Source: a virus. Taken from it: a stretch of DNA of 29,663 bases. The stretch spans positions 1-29,663 of IMG/VR virus record IMGVR_UViG_3300018018_000024. One strand, given 5' to 3'. Of this stretch, positions 4,506 through 9,915 are shown piece after piece; the first letter of the stretch is position 1; each line of letters starts with the position of its first letter. Below the pieces are notes generated by a model. The model worked only from the letters and a program-made list of their open reading frames with translations. It searched no databases and was not told the origin of the DNA. A program made the position numbers and the translations under genes.

Positions 4506-5090
4506 ATGCCCGACCAGCCCCCCGCCCCTCCGCCTAGCGGAGCCATTGTCTCTGCAACTACGCCCGAATCCGCCCTCCTTCAACCCCGCAAGGTCAACCG
4601 TCTCTCCGCCCCGCGCCACGAGGATTCTTTCGTTCCTTGCCTTAAAATCAAGCGCATCCGAGGTAAAGAACTGGCACCGGAGCCGGTCATGGTGCCGATG
4701 GACATTCTCGCCAACCAAAACCGCGAGATCATCGTGGCAGAATTGGCGCGGCAATTTTTAACGGGCGTATTGGATGACTGGCAGGATAAAGGCACTAAAC
4801 TCACCCCACAAGAATTAAAGCAGACCATGGAGGCTATTAAGATCGCTAATGAGAACTGCCGCTTCGCCCACGAAGGTATCGCCCTCCCGCCCACCCCGGC
4901 CAGTGGAGGCGAGGGTAAGGGCGGTGTGTTGGCCAAGGCGATGGAGGGGTTGGGCAAAGGGTTGGCGGCGGGGAAGACGCCCACGGAGGAAGAGCTGATG
5001 AAAAAGTTCAAGGAGTTGGGGCGGAAGCTGAATGAGAAAGAGGTGAAGGAAGGGGAGGCGGTTGAGGTAAAAGCCGAGGAGAAAAAGTGA
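4506..5090 (+). CDS. Possible terminase small subunit
   Basis: A 194-residue protein directly upstream of the terminase large subunit and overlapping its GTG start by 4 bp, the usual place for the small subunit that recognises the packaging site. The N-terminus is Pro/Ala-rich (MPDQPPAPPPSGAI). The middle has a helical segment, ILANQNREIIVAELARQFL, then LTPQELKQTMEAIKIANENC. The C-terminus is Lys/Glu-rich. A clear helix-turn-helix is not visible, so the call rests mostly on position. The start is the ATG at 4506, just after the promoter. Confidence 0.5.
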   Translation: MPDQPPAPPPSGAIVSATTPESALLQPRKVNRLSAPRHEDSFVPCLKIKRIRGKELAPEPVMVPMDILANQNREIIVAELARQFLTGVLDDWQDKGTKLTPQELKQTMEAIKIANENCRFAHEGIALPPTPASGGEGKGGVLAKAMEGLGKGLAAGKTPTEEELMKKFKELGRKLNEKEVKEGEAVEVKAEEKK

Positions 5091-8000
5091 CTCTCGCGCA
5101 GTTAAAGTTTTTACACTCTCTCCTCGACGGCCAAGATCACGAGCGGTGGAAGCAGGCCGCCAACCTCATCTTGGCAGAAAGGGGGATGGGCGAGGTGAGG
5201 GATAGCTTTGACCTCGCCGACAAGGTAATCCGCCAGTTCTTACAGGACTTGTTGGACGCAGAGGATTACGAGGGGGCGGCGGCGCTTTTGTGGCATGAGA
5301 AGATGTTCAGCCTTGGCCCTAAATTTGTGCAGGATGTAATGCGGGTCATGCACGACCATCACCTCATTTTATTGCAAGGGGCCAGCTCGACGAGCAAAAC
5401 TTTTACAAGTGCCGTCTATATGTTCTTGGATTGGCTACGCGACCCCGCCCTCACCTCCACTAAAATTCTCTCCCGCGATGAAGGGCACCTACGCGCCAAT
5501 GCTTTTGGAGCCATCCGTACCATGTTCTACAACATGGCCATCCCGTGGGCAGACATGGATGACGTGGTGGACCGCGATAGCGACCTTTACTTGGGGTTGA
5601 GGTCGGCGGGGAAGGAGTTCGGTTTTCAAGGCATTTCCTTCAAACAATCCTATGAAGCAACGGGTGCCTTGCAGGGCTATCATCCCCGCCCCTACCGCAA
5701 GTTCGATCACCCCAAGTTTGGGCGACTTTCCAGAATAAGAATTTTGGGCGATGAGTGTTTTCCGGGCGACCAACGGGTGTTAATGGAGGATGGAAGACAA
5801 CTCGCTATATCGGATATTGTGAACCGCCGCATTACTGATAGAGTTCTCTCATTCAATACAGCCACGGGCAAGATAGAAAAACGAGTAATTTGCGGGTGGC
5901 ATAAAATATCCTCACGAGGCAGGAAGATTGTGGAAATTTGCGGAGCGCGGATGACCGCCAACCACCCCGTTTATACGAAAGAACTCGGCTATATCTGCGC
6001 AGATGAGGCGATGAAGAAACGTCTTACAGCCATTACAATTTATGATAAGAGCCATACGGGATGCGGAACAACTCACCAAAGAACAACGGTCGCTAGTGAT
6101 AGGAGGACTGCTCGGAGACGCAAGCATAGGAATGAAGTCGGGCAAAAAATGCAATGCTTGCGTATGCTTTACTCAGGGGGTGGCCCAACTCGATTACCTC
6201 AAGTGGAAGCAACAGATAATGGATTCATTTGCCCCATATCAAATAAGGGGTCCGCAATACACGCAATTCGGAGGGATCGTGTACCGCCTTCGTACCCAAT
6301 GCCACCCGAGGTTCACGGAGATATTACACGTCATATATCCCAACGGAAAGGATGGTGGAAAAAGAATGACACCACAGATTTTCGAATGGCTCGACCCAAT
6401 GGCGATAGCTATCTGGTTCATGGACGACGGCAACATGTACAGGGCGAAAGGATGCAAAACAATCATTGCCAATCTGGCTTCTTACTTCATGCAGGAATTG
6501 GATGTGGACATGACCGTAGATTTTCTCAAGGCCAGAGGGTTAGAGTGCAGGAAAAAACCCGACAAGGGGAAAAATACAATCGTCTTCACCGCCGAAGGCT
6601 CCAGAAATCTAGCGGAGATGGTACGGCCATTCATTCATCCAGCCCTTTCCTACAAACTCACGGGCGAAAAGTGTCCGCCAAGGCCGCAGATAATTCCAAA
6701 TCTCAATGCACCAATCATGGAGGAGTGTGTCATGTGCGGAAAAATTTTCAGGAAGTTTGGGATGGCAACCACTTGCGGCCCAGAGTGCAGCCGCGCCAAA
6801 TTTCAAATTCTAGGCAGTCGTTCTTACAAGATAACGAGGCAGTTTACTGTATCGACGTTGCCGGAAACCACAACTTCTTTATTGAGGGAACCCTAGTTCA
6901 TAACTGTGCGGATTGGCCAGAAGGACCGTTCAAGGGGCTCGCCTCCCCAATCTCCTCCATCTCCGACGAGGGCCACGTTAAGATCGTCCTTACCTACAAC
7001 CCGGTCGGCGTGGACCGCCATGTGGTGCAGATGGCCGAGCCGGAACAAGGCTGGCTTTTGGAGGAGTGTGAGACGCTTTACGAGTGGGTCAGCAAAGAGG
7101 GTTGGCACGTACTGCGGCTGGATGCGAAACTAAGCGAGAATGTCGTCCAGCGCAAGATGATCTACCCCGGCATCCAGAACTTCGAGGGCTACATGCAGAA
7201 ATTGCGGGGCGAGGGGGACACGAGCAGCGCCTTCTATTGCTTCGGTCGGGGCTGGCCGCCCCTCCAAACCCAAGTCCACACCGTCTTCCCGCCCTCGTGG
7301 CCCACCACCCAGCGGGGCGAGGCGCTCTTTGATGAACTCATTTGCGTGTGGGGCTCGGTGGACTGCGCCTATCAGGGAATTGACAAGGTGGTGATGACGG
7401 TGGGGCGGTTTGGCTTTGCGAGCGGGTGGACCAAGGCGAACGGGGAGGTGGTGAAGTTCACCGATCCCACCAACCCCAAAAACTTCAAGTCCCGCCCCGT
7501 CTTGCAGGCCGACCAGCAGATCATGCTGGAGAAGAGCGACAACACCGTGACTCTAGCCAATGAGATCATCGGCAAGTGCAAGATGATGGGCATCGACCCG
7601 CAGTGGTTTGTGATCGATGGCAGTGCGGCGGGACAGGGCACGGCCTCCCACCTCACCACCTACTGGGGCAACGTGCTCGTACTCTACTGGGGCAAGGGTT
7701 CAACCAACTTCAAAGTGCTGGCCGAGGACAAGCAGCTTGCCAACGAGCGGTATCAGGGGCTCCCCTCCGAACTCTGGTTTGCCGCGAAGGAGTGGATGAA
7801 CCCGGAAGTGTGCGCTTTTCTCATCAACCCAATTATTTCTCCCAATCCCCTCAACACGGAACTATCTACGCGGAGAGCACATCCCGTTAAAGGCAAGATG
7901 TGCGTCGAAGCGAAAGAAATTTATAAAAGTCGAAATGCGGGCAAGTCTCCAGACTGTTTTGTTGCCGGGACGTTGGTATCTACACCCTACGGCGACACAC

Positions 8001-9112
8001 CCATAGAACAACTTTCCGTGGGAGATAAGATTATCACGCCATTTGGACCAACGCACATTATTGCGAAACACATTGATGAAGTGGATTGCATTACCACGGC
8101 CACCATGTCTAACGGCAGCACCCTTTCCGGCAAGGGAAAGCATCATGTTTTTGTATGGGGGAAGGGGTGGATAAAATTATCTGATTTAGAGCTTGACATG
8201 ATAATTGAGTCGGTACATCATGCGTGGATATGGAATATCCTAAGTCGGTTGTTTACAAAGGCGTCAACTATTTCCTTCAAAGCACTGGTAGATACTATCA
8301 AGATGGACACCGCGATGCGCCGGAGAGACTTTTACACCGAGTCATCTGGATTGAGCACAATGGGCCTATTCCGGGCGGCCTGCACGTCCATCACAAGAAT
8401 GGCGATTGGACAGATAACCGAATCGAGAATATGGAACTTCTGTCAGCATCCGCCCATTCGCGGTTGCATTATCCCGGCATCATATCAATGCCGGGAGTTA
8501 GAGAAGCCGTCGAAGCCGGACGGCAAAAAGCCATCAAACTTGCACCCCTATGGCACCGATCTATCGAAGGACTGGCGTGGCACAAAGCCAATGGAATACA
8601 GGGATGGCTCAAGCGAAAGTTCGTTGAAAAAATCTGCGTCATCTGCGGCAAACGGTTCTCCACCAAATTTGTGCACATGCACGACTGTTGTTCCAAAAAA
8701 TGCGCTATTATCAAAAACAATAAAAAGGCTTATTGCCTTCCTGTGCACTGCGAAATATGCGGTGCGCTCTTTATGGCTAATAAGTTTAGGCCGGGGAGGT
8801 ATTGCAGTCGAAAGTGTTGTTATGCGACACGTAAAGAATCCCGTGCCAGTCTACAACCTCACCCTAGCCGAACATAACGTGTATTATGCTAACGGCGTTT
8901 TGGTTGAGAATTGCGCAGATTCCCTCCTCATGGGAGTGACGCTCATTCGCCAGCGCGCTTCGGTCTTGCCCGGCATGGCTACCATGCAGGACAACCGCCC
9001 CAAGAAAGAGGAGGAGGGGGGCATAATAATTGTAGACTCCACTACCCCGCAACGGAAGATATTGGACATGGGGTGGGATGATAAAAACGCGGGGGAGGGG
9101 CTTAGGCTATGA
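5087..9112 (+). CDS. terL: Terminase large subunit with two inteins
   Basis: A 1341-codon gene, GTG start. After removal of two inteins (383 and 319 residues) the mature product would be about 639 residues, normal for a packaging motor. The ATPase part has a deviant Walker A, GASSTSKT (residues 98-105), and Walker B ILGDE ending at Asp222-Glu223, exactly where intein 1 begins. The nuclease part has SVDCAYQG (Asp759), VIDGSAAG (Asp844) and SPD-CADSL (Asp956, with Asp1278 after the intein), exactly where intein 2 sits. Activity therefore requires both splicing events. The gene overlaps its neighbours by 4 bp on both sides. In the two intein interiors the frame stays open although it reads as the shadow of endonuclease genes. 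Confidence 0.93.
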   Translation: MTLAQLKFLHSLLDGQDHERWKQAANLILAERGMGEVRDSFDLADKVIRQFLQDLLDAEDYEGAAALLWHEKMFSLGPKFVQDVMRVMHDHHLILLQGASSTSKTFTSAVYMFLDWLRDPALTSTKILSRDEGHLRANAFGAIRTMFYNMAIPWADMDDVVDRDSDLYLGLRSAGKEFGFQGISFKQSYEATGALQGYHPRPYRKFDHPKFGRLSRIRILGDECFPGDQRVLMEDGRQLAISDIVNRRITDRVLSFNTATGKIEKRVICGWHKISSRGRKIVEICGARMTANHPVYTKELGYICADEAMKKRLTAITIYDKSHTGCGTTHQRTTVASDRRTARRRKHRNEVGQKMQCLRMLYSGGGPTRLPQVEATDNGFICPISNKGSAIHAIRRDRVPPSYPMPPEVHGDITRHISQRKGWWKKNDTTDFRMARPNGDSYLVHGRRQHVQGERMQNNHCQSGFLLHAGIGCGHDRRFSQGQRVRVQEKTRQGEKYNRLHRRRLQKSSGDGTAIHSSSPFLQTHGRKVSAKAADNSKSQCTNHGGVCHVRKNFQEVWDGNHLRPRVQPRQISNSRQSFLQDNEAVYCIDVAGNHNFFIEGTLVHNCADWPEGPFKGLASPISSISDEGHVKIVLTYNPVGVDRHVVQMAEPEQGWLLEECETLYEWVSKEGWHVLRLDAKLSENVVQRKMIYPGIQNFEGYMQKLRGEGDTSSAFYCFGRGWPPLQTQVHTVFPPSWPTTQRGEALFDELICVWGSVDCAYQGIDKVVMTVGRFGFASGWTKANGEVVKFTDPTNPKNFKSRPVLQADQQIMLEKSDNTVTLANEIIGKCKMMGIDPQWFVIDGSAAGQGTASHLTTYWGNVLVLYWGKGSTNFKVLAEDKQLANERYQGLPSELWFAAKEWMNPEVCAFLINPIISPNPLNTELSTRRAHPVKGKMCVEAKEIYKSRNAGKSPDCFVAGTLVSTPYGDTPIEQLSVGDKIITPFGPTHIIAKHIDEVDCITTATMSNGSTLSGKGKHHVFVWGKGWIKLSDLELDMIIESVHHAWIWNILSRLFTKASTISFKALVDTIKMDTAMRRRDFYTESSGLSTMGLFRAACTSITRMAIGQITESRIWNFCQHPPIRGCIIPASYQCRELEKPSKPDGKKPSNLHPYGTDLSKDWRGTKPMEYRDGSSESSLKKSASSAANGSPPNLCTCTTVVPKNALLSKTIKRLIAFLCTAKYAVRSLWLISLGRGGIAVESVVMRHVKNPVPVYNLTLAEHNVYYANGVLVENCADSLLMGVTLIRQRASVLPGMATMQDNRPKKEEEGGIIIVDSTTPQRKILDMGWDDKNAGEGLRL
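5756..6904 (+). mobile_element. Intein 1 of terminase, in Walker B site, with out-of-frame endonuclease
   Basis: A 383-residue intein, from Cys224 (CFPGDQRVLMEDG, block A) to VHN (ending at 6904), followed by the +1 extein Cys (TGT 6905-6907). Block B is seen as ARMTANHPVYT. Blocks F and G appear as VYCIDVAGNHNFFIEGT and LVHN. It splits ILGDE from CADWPEG at the terminase Walker B. Hint residues cover about the first 95 and last 35 residues. The roughly 250 in-frame residues between them (from about 6040 to 6800) have the odd Arg/His/Gln-rich composition of a frameshifted shadow, and a LAGLIDADG gene occupies this DNA in the +1 frame. Class 1-type splicing (Cys1, His-Asn, Cys+1) looks intact. 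Confidence 0.9.
6042..6896 (+). CDS. LAGLIDADG homing endonuclease, +1 frame inside intein 1
   Basis: A 284-residue frame shifted +1 relative to the terminase gene. It matches the LAGLIDADG DNA endonuclease family: LTKEQRSLVIGGLLGDASIG holds the first motif (residues about 18-30), the helix QLDYLKWKQQIMDSF follows, and AIAIWFMDDGNMY holds the second. A Cys-rich zinc-finger-like segment (CVMCGKIF then CGPECSR) is near the end; the last roughly 27 residues are the shadow of the intein C-terminal part. The enzyme would cut the intein-less terminase allele and spread the intein. ATG 6042 has no Shine-Dalgarno sequence. Expression by its own initiation, by frameshifting from the Hint frame (the +1 frame is open from 6015), or both, is undecided. 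Confidence 0.88.
   Translation: MIRAIRDAEQLTKEQRSLVIGGLLGDASIGMKSGKKCNACVCFTQGVAQLDYLKWKQQIMDSFAPYQIRGPQYTQFGGIVYRLRTQCHPRFTEILHVIYPNGKDGGKRMTPQIFEWLDPMAIAIWFMDDGNMYRAKGCKTIIANLASYFMQELDVDMTVDFLKARGLECRKKPDKGKNTIVFTAEGSRNLAEMVRPFIHPALSYKLTGEKCPPRPQIIPNLNAPIMEECVMCGKIFRKFGMATTCGPECSRAKFQILGSRSYKITRQFTVSTLPETTTSLLREP
8193..8221 (+). promoter_or_regulatory. Promoter inside intein 2, for the nested HNH gene
   Basis: TTGACA (8193-8198), a 17-nt spacer and CATCAT (8216-8221). The CATCAT element is identical to those at 10581 and 10986. The ATG of the HNH gene is 8 nt after the -10, the same distance as for the portal gene at 15016, so transcription would begin at or within a base or two of the start codon. 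Confidence 0.5.
8230..8877 (+). CDS. HNH homing endonuclease, +2 frame inside intein 2
   Basis: A 215-residue frame, +2 relative to terminase, starting MEYPKSVVYKG (a GTG two codons upstream is an alternative). It has an HNH_3-type core: LLHRVIWIEHNGPIPGG, then LHVHHKNGDWTDNRIENMEL and SASAHSRLH. Two zinc-finger-like Cys motifs follow (CVICGKRF with CCSKKC, and CEICGALF with CSRKCC). It would nick or cut the uninvaded terminase allele. The promoter at 8193-8221 and the leaderless spacing suggest expression independent of the terminase mRNA. The stop (8875-8877) lies within the intein C-terminal coding part. Confidence 0.87.
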   Translation: MEYPKSVVYKGVNYFLQSTGRYYQDGHRDAPERLLHRVIWIEHNGPIPGGLHVHHKNGDWTDNRIENMELLSASAHSRLHYPGIISMPGVREAVEAGRQKAIKLAPLWHRSIEGLAWHKANGIQGWLKRKFVEKICVICGKRFSTKFVHMHDCCSKKCAIIKNNKKAYCLPVHCEICGALFMANKFRPGRYCSRKCCYATRKESRASLQPHPSRT

Positions 9113-9915
9113 ACGAAGAAAATTTAGAGGTGCAACATGGCATGGCTATTCAGCAAGGCGTTAATGAACCGCTACGAGAACTCGCACTCTTTGCCGGTGC
9201 GGGCGGGGGAATCCTTGGGGGCAAACTGCTCGGATGGCGAACCGTCTGTGCCGTCGAAATCGACGCCTATGCCGCAAGCGTGCTTGTGGCACGGCAAAAC
9301 GACGGCTGCTTGGAAGCGTTTCCCGTCTGGGATGACGTGCGAACCTTTGACGGACGACCTTGGCGGAGCCGTGTTGACGTGGTTTCTGGCGGGTTTCCCT
9401 GTCAGGATATTAGTTCAGCAGGAAAGGGGATCGGAATTAATGGTGAACGAAGTGGACTATGGAAAGAATTTGTCCGAATCATTGGCGAAGTACGACCCCG
9501 TTTCTCATTCGTGGAAAACTCACCAATTCTCACTAGCAGGGGACTTGGAGTTGTTCTCGGAGACTTATTCGAATTGGGGTATGATGCGCAATGGGCAATT
9601 ATTGGAGGTAAAGACGCCAAAATGGATATTGACGGAAAGAGAATATGGATTATTGCCGCGTCCATGTGCAGGGGATTATCGGCGTGGAACAGTTCAAAAT
9701 TATCAAAAACTAAAGGCTTATCTACTGAGGCATCAACTATCCCTGCAAGATGTTCTCAATATGATCGGATTAGAAAATGGAGAACATGGACAAACAGACC
9801 CTATCTACACCGAAATAGCGATGGATTGGCCAATAGGGTGGACCGCCTTAAGGCCATTGGAAACGGCCAAGTTCCAGCAGTGGCTAGACTTGCATGGGAG
9901 ACATTAGCCCCATGA
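9109..9915 (+). CDS. DNA (cytosine-5)-methyltransferase
   Basis: A 268-residue C5-methyltransferase. Motif I is ELALFAGAGGGILGG (SAM binding). Motif IV is GGFPCQDIS with catalytic Cys98. Motif VI appears as FVENSP, where the usual ENV is ENS. Motif VIII-like KRIWIIAA follows, and motif X is LKAIGNGQVPAVA near the C-terminus. The variable region between about residues 185 and 240 is short and low in recognisable features, so the target-recognition domain is small. The gene overlaps the terminase stop by 4 bp. It probably methylates phage DNA against host restriction. A second long frame runs through the same DNA (9137-9907). Confidence 0.9.
   Translation: MNEENLEVQHGMAIQQGVNEPLRELALFAGAGGGILGGKLLGWRTVCAVEIDAYAASVLVARQNDGCLEAFPVWDDVRTFDGRPWRSRVDVVSGGFPCQDISSAGKGIGINGERSGLWKEFVRIIGEVRPRFSFVENSPILTSRGLGVVLGDLFELGYDAQWAIIGGKDAKMDIDGKRIWIIAASMCRGLSAWNSSKLSKTKGLSTEASTIPARCSQYDRIRKWRTWTNRPYLHRNSDGLANRVDRLKAIGNGQVPAVARLAWETLAP
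9137..9907 (+). CDS. Overlapping-frame protein inside the methyltransferase gene
   Basis: A 256-codon frame, +1 relative to the methyltransferase, open along almost its whole length. The first 100 residues look like the methyltransferase shadow. From the internal ATG at 9440 it reads like a real protein: SESLAKYDPVSHSWKTHQ, FSETYSNWGMMRNG, EREYGLLPRPCAGDY, LSLQDVL and DWPIGWTALRPLETAKFQQW. I recall this pattern (KYDP..S.WKT, WG.MRNG, GLLPTP, WPIGWT.L) from many phage and prophage proteins annotated beside or inside cytosine methyltransferase genes. No function is known to me. The real start may be 9440 rather than 9137. Confidence 0.5.
   Translation: MAWLFSKALMNRYENSHSLPVRAGESLGANCSDGEPSVPSKSTPMPQACLWHGKTTAAWKRFPSGMTCEPLTDDLGGAVLTWFLAGFPVRILVQQERGSELMVNEVDYGKNLSESLAKYDPVSHSWKTHQFSLAGDLELFSETYSNWGMMRNGQLLEVKTPKWILTEREYGLLPRPCAGDYRRGTVQNYQKLKAYLLRHQLSLQDVLNMIGLENGEHGQTDPIYTEIAMDWPIGWTALRPLETAKFQQWLDLHGRH

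Follow-up and report, generated by a model that had tools for sequence, protein, structure and literature searches.

The small chain of the two-polypeptide C5-cytosine methyltransferase M.EcoHK31I was reportedly found by Lee, Kam and Shaw in 1995 to be read from a different frame within the gene for the large chain. Prokaryotes and their viruses seldom have long, nearly coextensive overlapping genes on the same strand with a functional reason for the overlap. In C5-methyltransferases, the small domain comprises the variable region and motif IX, and the large domain the remainder; natural enzymes made of two polypeptides exist, namely M.AquI and M.EcoHK31I (PMC3404938). As described there, M.EcoHK31I has motifs I-VIII, motif X and the target-recognition domain (TRD) on its large chain and only motif IX on its small chain, and M.AquI has part of the TRD and motif IX on its second chain (PMC3404938).

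The locus described here lies in a 29,663-nucleotide stretch of viral DNA (IMG/VR record IMGVR_UViG_3300018018_000024), which as a whole is referred to as the window. The window locus resembles M.EcoHK31I (YGGCCR) in that motifs I-VIII and X share a chain and motif IX is on the other, with motif IX assigned by homology to the LSPxFVEWMMG stretch upstream of motif X in single-chain enzymes. It differs in the reach of the second frame, which covers almost all of the gene (256 of 268 codons), and in that the TRD, which the same paper places on the large chain of M.EcoHK31I, appears to be on the second chain. The window pair would therefore be a variant of the M.EcoHK31I type and not a plain member of it. 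A Citrobacter homologue search of E. coli matched 4 of 5426 genomes, none of them named M.EcoHK31I. With M.AquI (CYCGRG), as portrayed in the same source, the window shares the apparent placement of the TRD region and motif IX on the second chain; unlike M.AquI, it has motif X in frame 0, and its chains overlap almost completely in different frames. Related actinophage-type loci (Krili gp6/gp5, ArV1 067a/067b and Koreni gp78/gp77) put motif X on the second chain too. The reading that we favour, and consider probable, is that a single segment of phage DNA, read in two frames, gives the two chains of a C5-cytosine DNA methyltransferase.

Organization of the locus

The first-pass annotation had pointed to a +1 frame that stays open inside the C5-methyltransferase gene. 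It is indeed an ORF, 9137-9907(+), which begins with ATG, runs for 256 aa without interruption by a stop, and is wholly contained within the methyltransferase ORF 9109-9915(+) and in the +1 frame relative to it (the methyltransferase frame being frame 0). The features of the locus are as follows.

9094-9098, + strand: GGAGG, Shine-Dalgarno-like by sequence, ahead of ATG 9109
9109-9915, + strand: C5-cytosine methyltransferase ORF, frame 0, 268 aa as listed
9126-9130, + strand: AGAGG, Shine-Dalgarno-like by sequence, 6 nt ahead of ATG 9137 and 11 nt ahead of ATG 9142
9137-9907, + strand: second gene, +1 (alternative) frame, an open frame with relatives found by tblastn and in viral contigs
9137-9169, + strand: alternative-frame N-terminus MAWLFSKALMN of the 'long' class, ahead of motif I of the methyltransferase, with conservation in the alternative frame and not in frame 0
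9178-9210, + strand: motif I, ELALFAGAGGG, frame 0 (methyltransferase alignment A2)
9388-9405, + strand: motif IV, GGFPCQ with the catalytic Cys, frame 0 (PCQ invariant in alignment A2)
9508-9525, + strand: motif VI, FVENSP, frame 0 (EN invariant in alignment A2)
9560-9595, + strand: ETYSNWGMMRNG core, alternative frame, whose codons fix Gly as GGG and Ala as GCG in frame-0 GYDA
9637-9651, + strand: motif VIII, KRIWI, frame 0, somewhat degenerate (alignment A2)
9647-9796, + strand: target-recognition-like variable region, alternative frame, from GLLPRP (regional selection; homology to LLPTP modules of single-chain methyltransferases)
9797-9850, + strand: candidate motif IX equivalent DPIYTEIAMDWPIGWTAL, alternative frame (alignments A3 and A5; hhalign to single-chain LSPxFVEWMMG)
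9853-9876, + strand: motif X, AIGNGQVP, frame 0 (alignment A2)

The in-frame ATG at 9142, 5 nt after the start of the second gene, may be the real start of the methyltransferase. The frame-0 ORF matches phrog_363 (E 6.9e-55) and PF00145 (E 1.7e-25, residues 25-202), the latter over profile positions 4-181 of 324 only. The catalytic motifs I, IV (PCQ), VI (EN) and X (GN) of the PF00145 class are in frame 0. The frame-0 motif VIII reads DIDGKRIWI (9625-9651) and lacks one of the arginines of the canonical form. The target-recognition region and motif IX are not in the frame-0 chain, as the Pfam match ends at position 181. The second protein gave no Pfam or NCBIfam family match, and no solved structure was matched by its sequence (best E 0.34). 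Its motifs SLAKYDP, SWKT, WGMMRNG, GLLPRP and DWPIGWTAL are present as had been described, although SLAKYDP begins near 9476 and not at 9440.

The ORF just upstream, 5087-9112(+), contains two intein-like insertions (Intein_splicing at residues 233-606 and Hint_2 at residues 957-992); judging by its sequence it is probably the terminase large subunit, and it gave no terminase family match. A 284-aa LAGLIDADG_2 endonuclease ORF (6042-6896(+), E 2.6e-25) and a 217-aa HNH_3 endonuclease ORF (8224-8877(+), E 6e-18) lie in another frame inside its first and second intein regions, respectively. Together with the second gene, these two nested ORFs make three successive out-of-frame nested genes in the window.

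Openness and start of the second frame

When codons are permuted synonymously within the gene, so that the methyltransferase protein stays unchanged, 8.2 stops are expected in the +1 frame between 9137 and 9904, where none is found, and no stop-free +1 frame arose in 20,000 permutations. Drawing instead on the codon usage of nine further ORFs of the window gives an expectation of 7.0 stops (P = 0.00025). The absence of stops stressed in the first-pass annotation thus holds, with an expectation of 7-8 and not about 12, which was a little high. The +2 frame of the same gene has 20 stops.

Relatives of the second protein were found by tblastn in 74 phage records, each below 60% identity, and an alignment of ten of them retrieved 387 confirmed viral-contig stretches, 80 of which were kept as the second-frame locus set; hundreds of phage contigs carry relatives of both frames together. 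Among loci fetched with the methyltransferase (the best 80 of 592 confirmed), 79 have no internal +1 stop, with 1.2 expected to be open, the mean number of stops being 0.01 in the +1 frame against 4.2 expected, and 13.8 in the +2 frame; all 80 match the second protein. The loci are related, so that these counts are not independent, and the eight members of alignment A2, with which this set was fetched, had come in with second-frame hits, many of the 80 lying on contigs shared with the second-frame set. The single locus with an internal second-frame stop among these best 80 of 592 (L169, on a contig shared with L082) has one stop. In control methyltransferases of the Streptococcus type, none of 70 is open in the +1 frame, which has 16.8 stops. 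Of 76 loci from bacterial genomes, 70 have both frames open, five the second frame only and one the methyltransferase only.

The pattern had been placed next to phage methyltransferases; it is instead inside them, in the +1 frame at 98 of 98 loci examined. Two candidates for a stand-alone second protein, gp29 of Escherichia phage ev129 and one in Lacticaseibacillus phage R23.9, proved to be methyltransferase frames with the second pattern in their +1 frame. After these two had been checked, no second protein without a methyltransferase overlap had been found.

The start of the second gene is also conserved. In the commonest arrangement (ATGAATG) 4 nt separate the starts, with the methyltransferase-frame start at -4 in 139 of 178 loci; it is at +5 in 23 of the 178. 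All 113 scorable genes (26 of the 139 have no scorable motif) encode the Asn of NELALF by AAT, the codon that creates the second ATG, and AAT makes up 374 of 1081 (35%) of the other Asn codons in these genes. The window belongs to the long class (15 of 178 loci), in which the second start is upstream of motif I. Over the first 11 residues of 11 distinct long-class loci, mean identity is 0.71 in the alternative frame against 0.39 in frame 0 for the same DNA, and the serine codons of these N-termini vary among TCA, AGC and AGT. The long-class N-terminus is the cleanest sign of selection on the second protein itself.

Selection in the two frames

Selection was assessed from pairwise substitution counts, classed by their effect in both frames. 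In the +1 frame, dNN/dNS was 0.66-0.85 and dSN/dSS 0.29-0.38, compared with 1.33-1.40 and 0.77-1.00 in the +2 frame. Non-overlapping controls also give +1 ratios below 1 (dNN/dNS 0.84-0.90, dSN/dSS 0.61-0.65), which marks a bias, and we do not lean on the overlap ratios alone. In the half that spans motifs I-VIII, dNN/dNS was 0.89, no lower than in controls; given the bias, only dSN/dSS, at 0.31 and below the control range, stands out there. The second-frame sequences resemble one another more than random synonymous choice would make them (z 3.5; controls, 2.6). At 54 four-fold columns, entropy did not set the overlap set apart from controls (p 0.29; p 0.03 when normalised). The outcome for excess synonymous constraint, the check put forward in the first-pass annotation, is mixed in this half. 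A comparison within 61 distinct actinophage-type genes, which serves as an internal control, is clearer than that with control genes: four-fold entropy drops from 1.63 bits ahead of the overlap to 1.16 inside it (12 columns each side, p 0.008). Moreover, the Gly codon of GYDA is GGG in 127 of 128 genes (59 of 60 actinophage-type loci) and its Ala codon is GCG in 88 of 112 genes (50 of 54 actinophage-type loci), the frozen GGG underlying the WGMMRNG-type core of the second protein. Taken together, the N-terminal half of the second protein is under modest constraint beyond openness.

Past motif VIII the constraint switches frames. Here dNN/dSN of frame 0 is 1.05 (0.98-1.15), which is neutral, compared with 0.32-0.38 for whole control genes, and the TRD and motif IX are thus not found on the chain that carries the catalytic motifs. 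The alternative frame is constrained in the same stretch, with a dNN/dNS of 0.72 (0.64-0.82) against 1.34 in the +2 control, and the quickest-changing codon position is the third of the second frame. This bears out the earlier impression that frame 0 becomes featureless where the other frame still looks natural; frame 0 is featureless across the target-recognition-like region of the second protein (9647-9796).

The second frame is accordingly both open and under purifying selection, weakly so relative to controls in the motif I-VIII half. That methyltransferase conservation and codon bias alone keep the frame open, as the near-control four-fold entropy of the overlap set would allow, is very improbable: 79 of the best 80 of 592 loci are open where 1.2 would be, AAT is invariant at the second start (113/113), the long-class N-termini are conserved in the alternative frame, and past motif VIII it is frame 0 that drifts and the alternative frame that is held. 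We reject this explanation for the gene as a whole, the motif I-VIII half not being clearly above controls by synonymous-site entropy. Openness, the conserved start codon, the reversal of selection past motif VIII and the conservation of the N-terminus support ORF 9137-9907 as a true overlapping gene, as the first-pass annotation had suggested.

A probable recognition region and motif IX in the second protein

Alignments of relatives give the C-terminal half of the second protein the form GLWPTP...LNPxWVEWLMGWPxGWTDL, the family consensus of the motif IX equivalent being LNPxWVEWLMGWPLGWTDL. Actinophage-type loci, comprising 80 loci from a search with actinophage relatives and three phage records, include 17 of 83 in which motifs I-VIII, the EWxMG motif and an ALGNGVVPQQ-type motif X are in one ORF; in 65 of 83 the C-terminal part is in the +1 frame, and one of 83 has no N-terminal hit. 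At the single-ORF loci L216, L223 and L229 the LLPTP modules are in frame 0. By hhalign, the C-terminal half of the second protein matches the single-chain region with a probability of 97.6 (E 1.3e-11), and the N-terminal half gave no match to it. The LLPTP modules would, by their position, be the variable target-recognition region. L.P......MG.P was taken as a putative motif IX from comparison by eye with LTPRECWRLQGFP in controls; hhalign does not make this match, and it links the canonical Streptococcus C-termini to neither that of the second protein nor that of the single-chain enzymes. On the homology to the single-chain region, the second frame very probably encodes the part that chooses the DNA sequence to be methylated.

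PTP copies range from 0 to 4 among 173 second proteins. Five single-ORF loci of the actinophage type (L201, L234, L239, L254 and L261) have one recognition-like module, TPTAQLAVNGGSQHPDKRKAGGHGPTLADEVEHL or close forms of it, in the +1 frame, with later parts read in frame 0; this looks as though modules had switched frame. Structure prediction of the second protein was poor (pLDDT 57, pTM 0.29). A model of the single-chain protein of L223 (pLDDT 62.6) aligned with M.HhaI by VIA (Z 20.8, rmsd 3.9, 258 aligned); its module region (168-321) has pLDDT below 50, so that the recognition fold is absent from the model.

The first-pass annotation had offered a specificity or an inhibitor partner, and the C-terminal homology to the TRD and motif IX of single-chain C5-methyltransferases favours the former and lends the latter no support. 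An independent partner, such as an inhibitor, a regulator or an anti-restriction protein that is not part of the enzyme, would fit a protein whose sequence matches neither a Pfam or NCBIfam family nor a solved structure; we nevertheless consider it unlikely, given that homology and a frame 0 whose Pfam match stops before the TRD and motif IX. Alternatively, a programmed frameshift could fuse frame-0 motifs I-VIII to the +1-frame target-recognition region and motif IX in one chain. Actinophage-type loci have motif X in the +1 frame as well, and their frame-0 ORF ends soon past motif VIII, so that a frameshift there would yield a complete enzyme. In loci of the window type, however, motif X is in frame 0 and the frameshifted product would lack it; the second frame also has its own conserved start, and its conserved N-terminus lies upstream of any useful shift site. 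Such a fusion is thus quite unlikely.

Annotation of related loci

The arrangement has left traces in existing annotations. The window second protein matches phrog_1008 ('DNA methyltransferase') over residues 79-187 (7.1e-12), as do its relatives, and that name is silent on members sitting in another frame of a methyltransferase gene. DIVA_50 of Paenibacillus phage Diva, noted as 'g49 internal gene', is a second-frame ORF inside the methyltransferase gene and ends in QLNPDWVECLMGFPIGWTD; it is annotated as a hypothetical protein with no function given. This label and the ArV1 067a/067b pair indicate that annotators had noticed parts of the arrangement. Pseudomonas phage phPA-G and Vibrio phage 1.236.O have an annotated gene for the second frame and none for the methyltransferase. 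Literature searches on overlapping or alternative-frame genes of phage methyltransferases returned nothing relevant by title, and those on split methyltransferases, on an internal gene in a Paenibacillus phage and on frameshifting in ArV1 found no papers; on that basis we do not claim that the overlap is unpublished.

A proposed two-chain methyltransferase

In the two-chain enzyme that we propose, frame 0 would supply the large domain, with motifs I-VIII and X, and the +1 frame, starting a few nucleotides from the methyltransferase start, would supply the second chain. The small domain, made up of the variable target-recognition region and motif IX, would be the C-terminal half of this chain. 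The N-terminal half would be an overprinted extension across the catalytic motifs, mostly weakly constrained and with a conserved start, whose conserved W.WGMMRNG-type core may help the second chain to dock. We infer that both frames are translated and that the two chains assemble, the second chain setting the methylation target, with the result that phage DNA would be methylated and protected against host restriction.

More tentatively, and with slightly less than even confidence, we suggest a phage-wide enzyme family that carries catalysis in one frame and the choice of DNA target in another. Modules would be gained and lost in the second frame, appearing in frame 0 as near-neutral filler, and the first half of the second chain would be overprinted sequence kept only by partnership. 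If so, specificity could evolve without disturbing the catalytic chain.

The overlapping pair here would be two domains of one enzyme. Gene callers retain one frame and discard the other; if the proposal is true, many annotated phage C5-methyltransferases would be listed without their specificity subunit, and a clone of frame 0 alone would have no activity. The pair would also offer a testable system for the origin of new proteins by overprinting.
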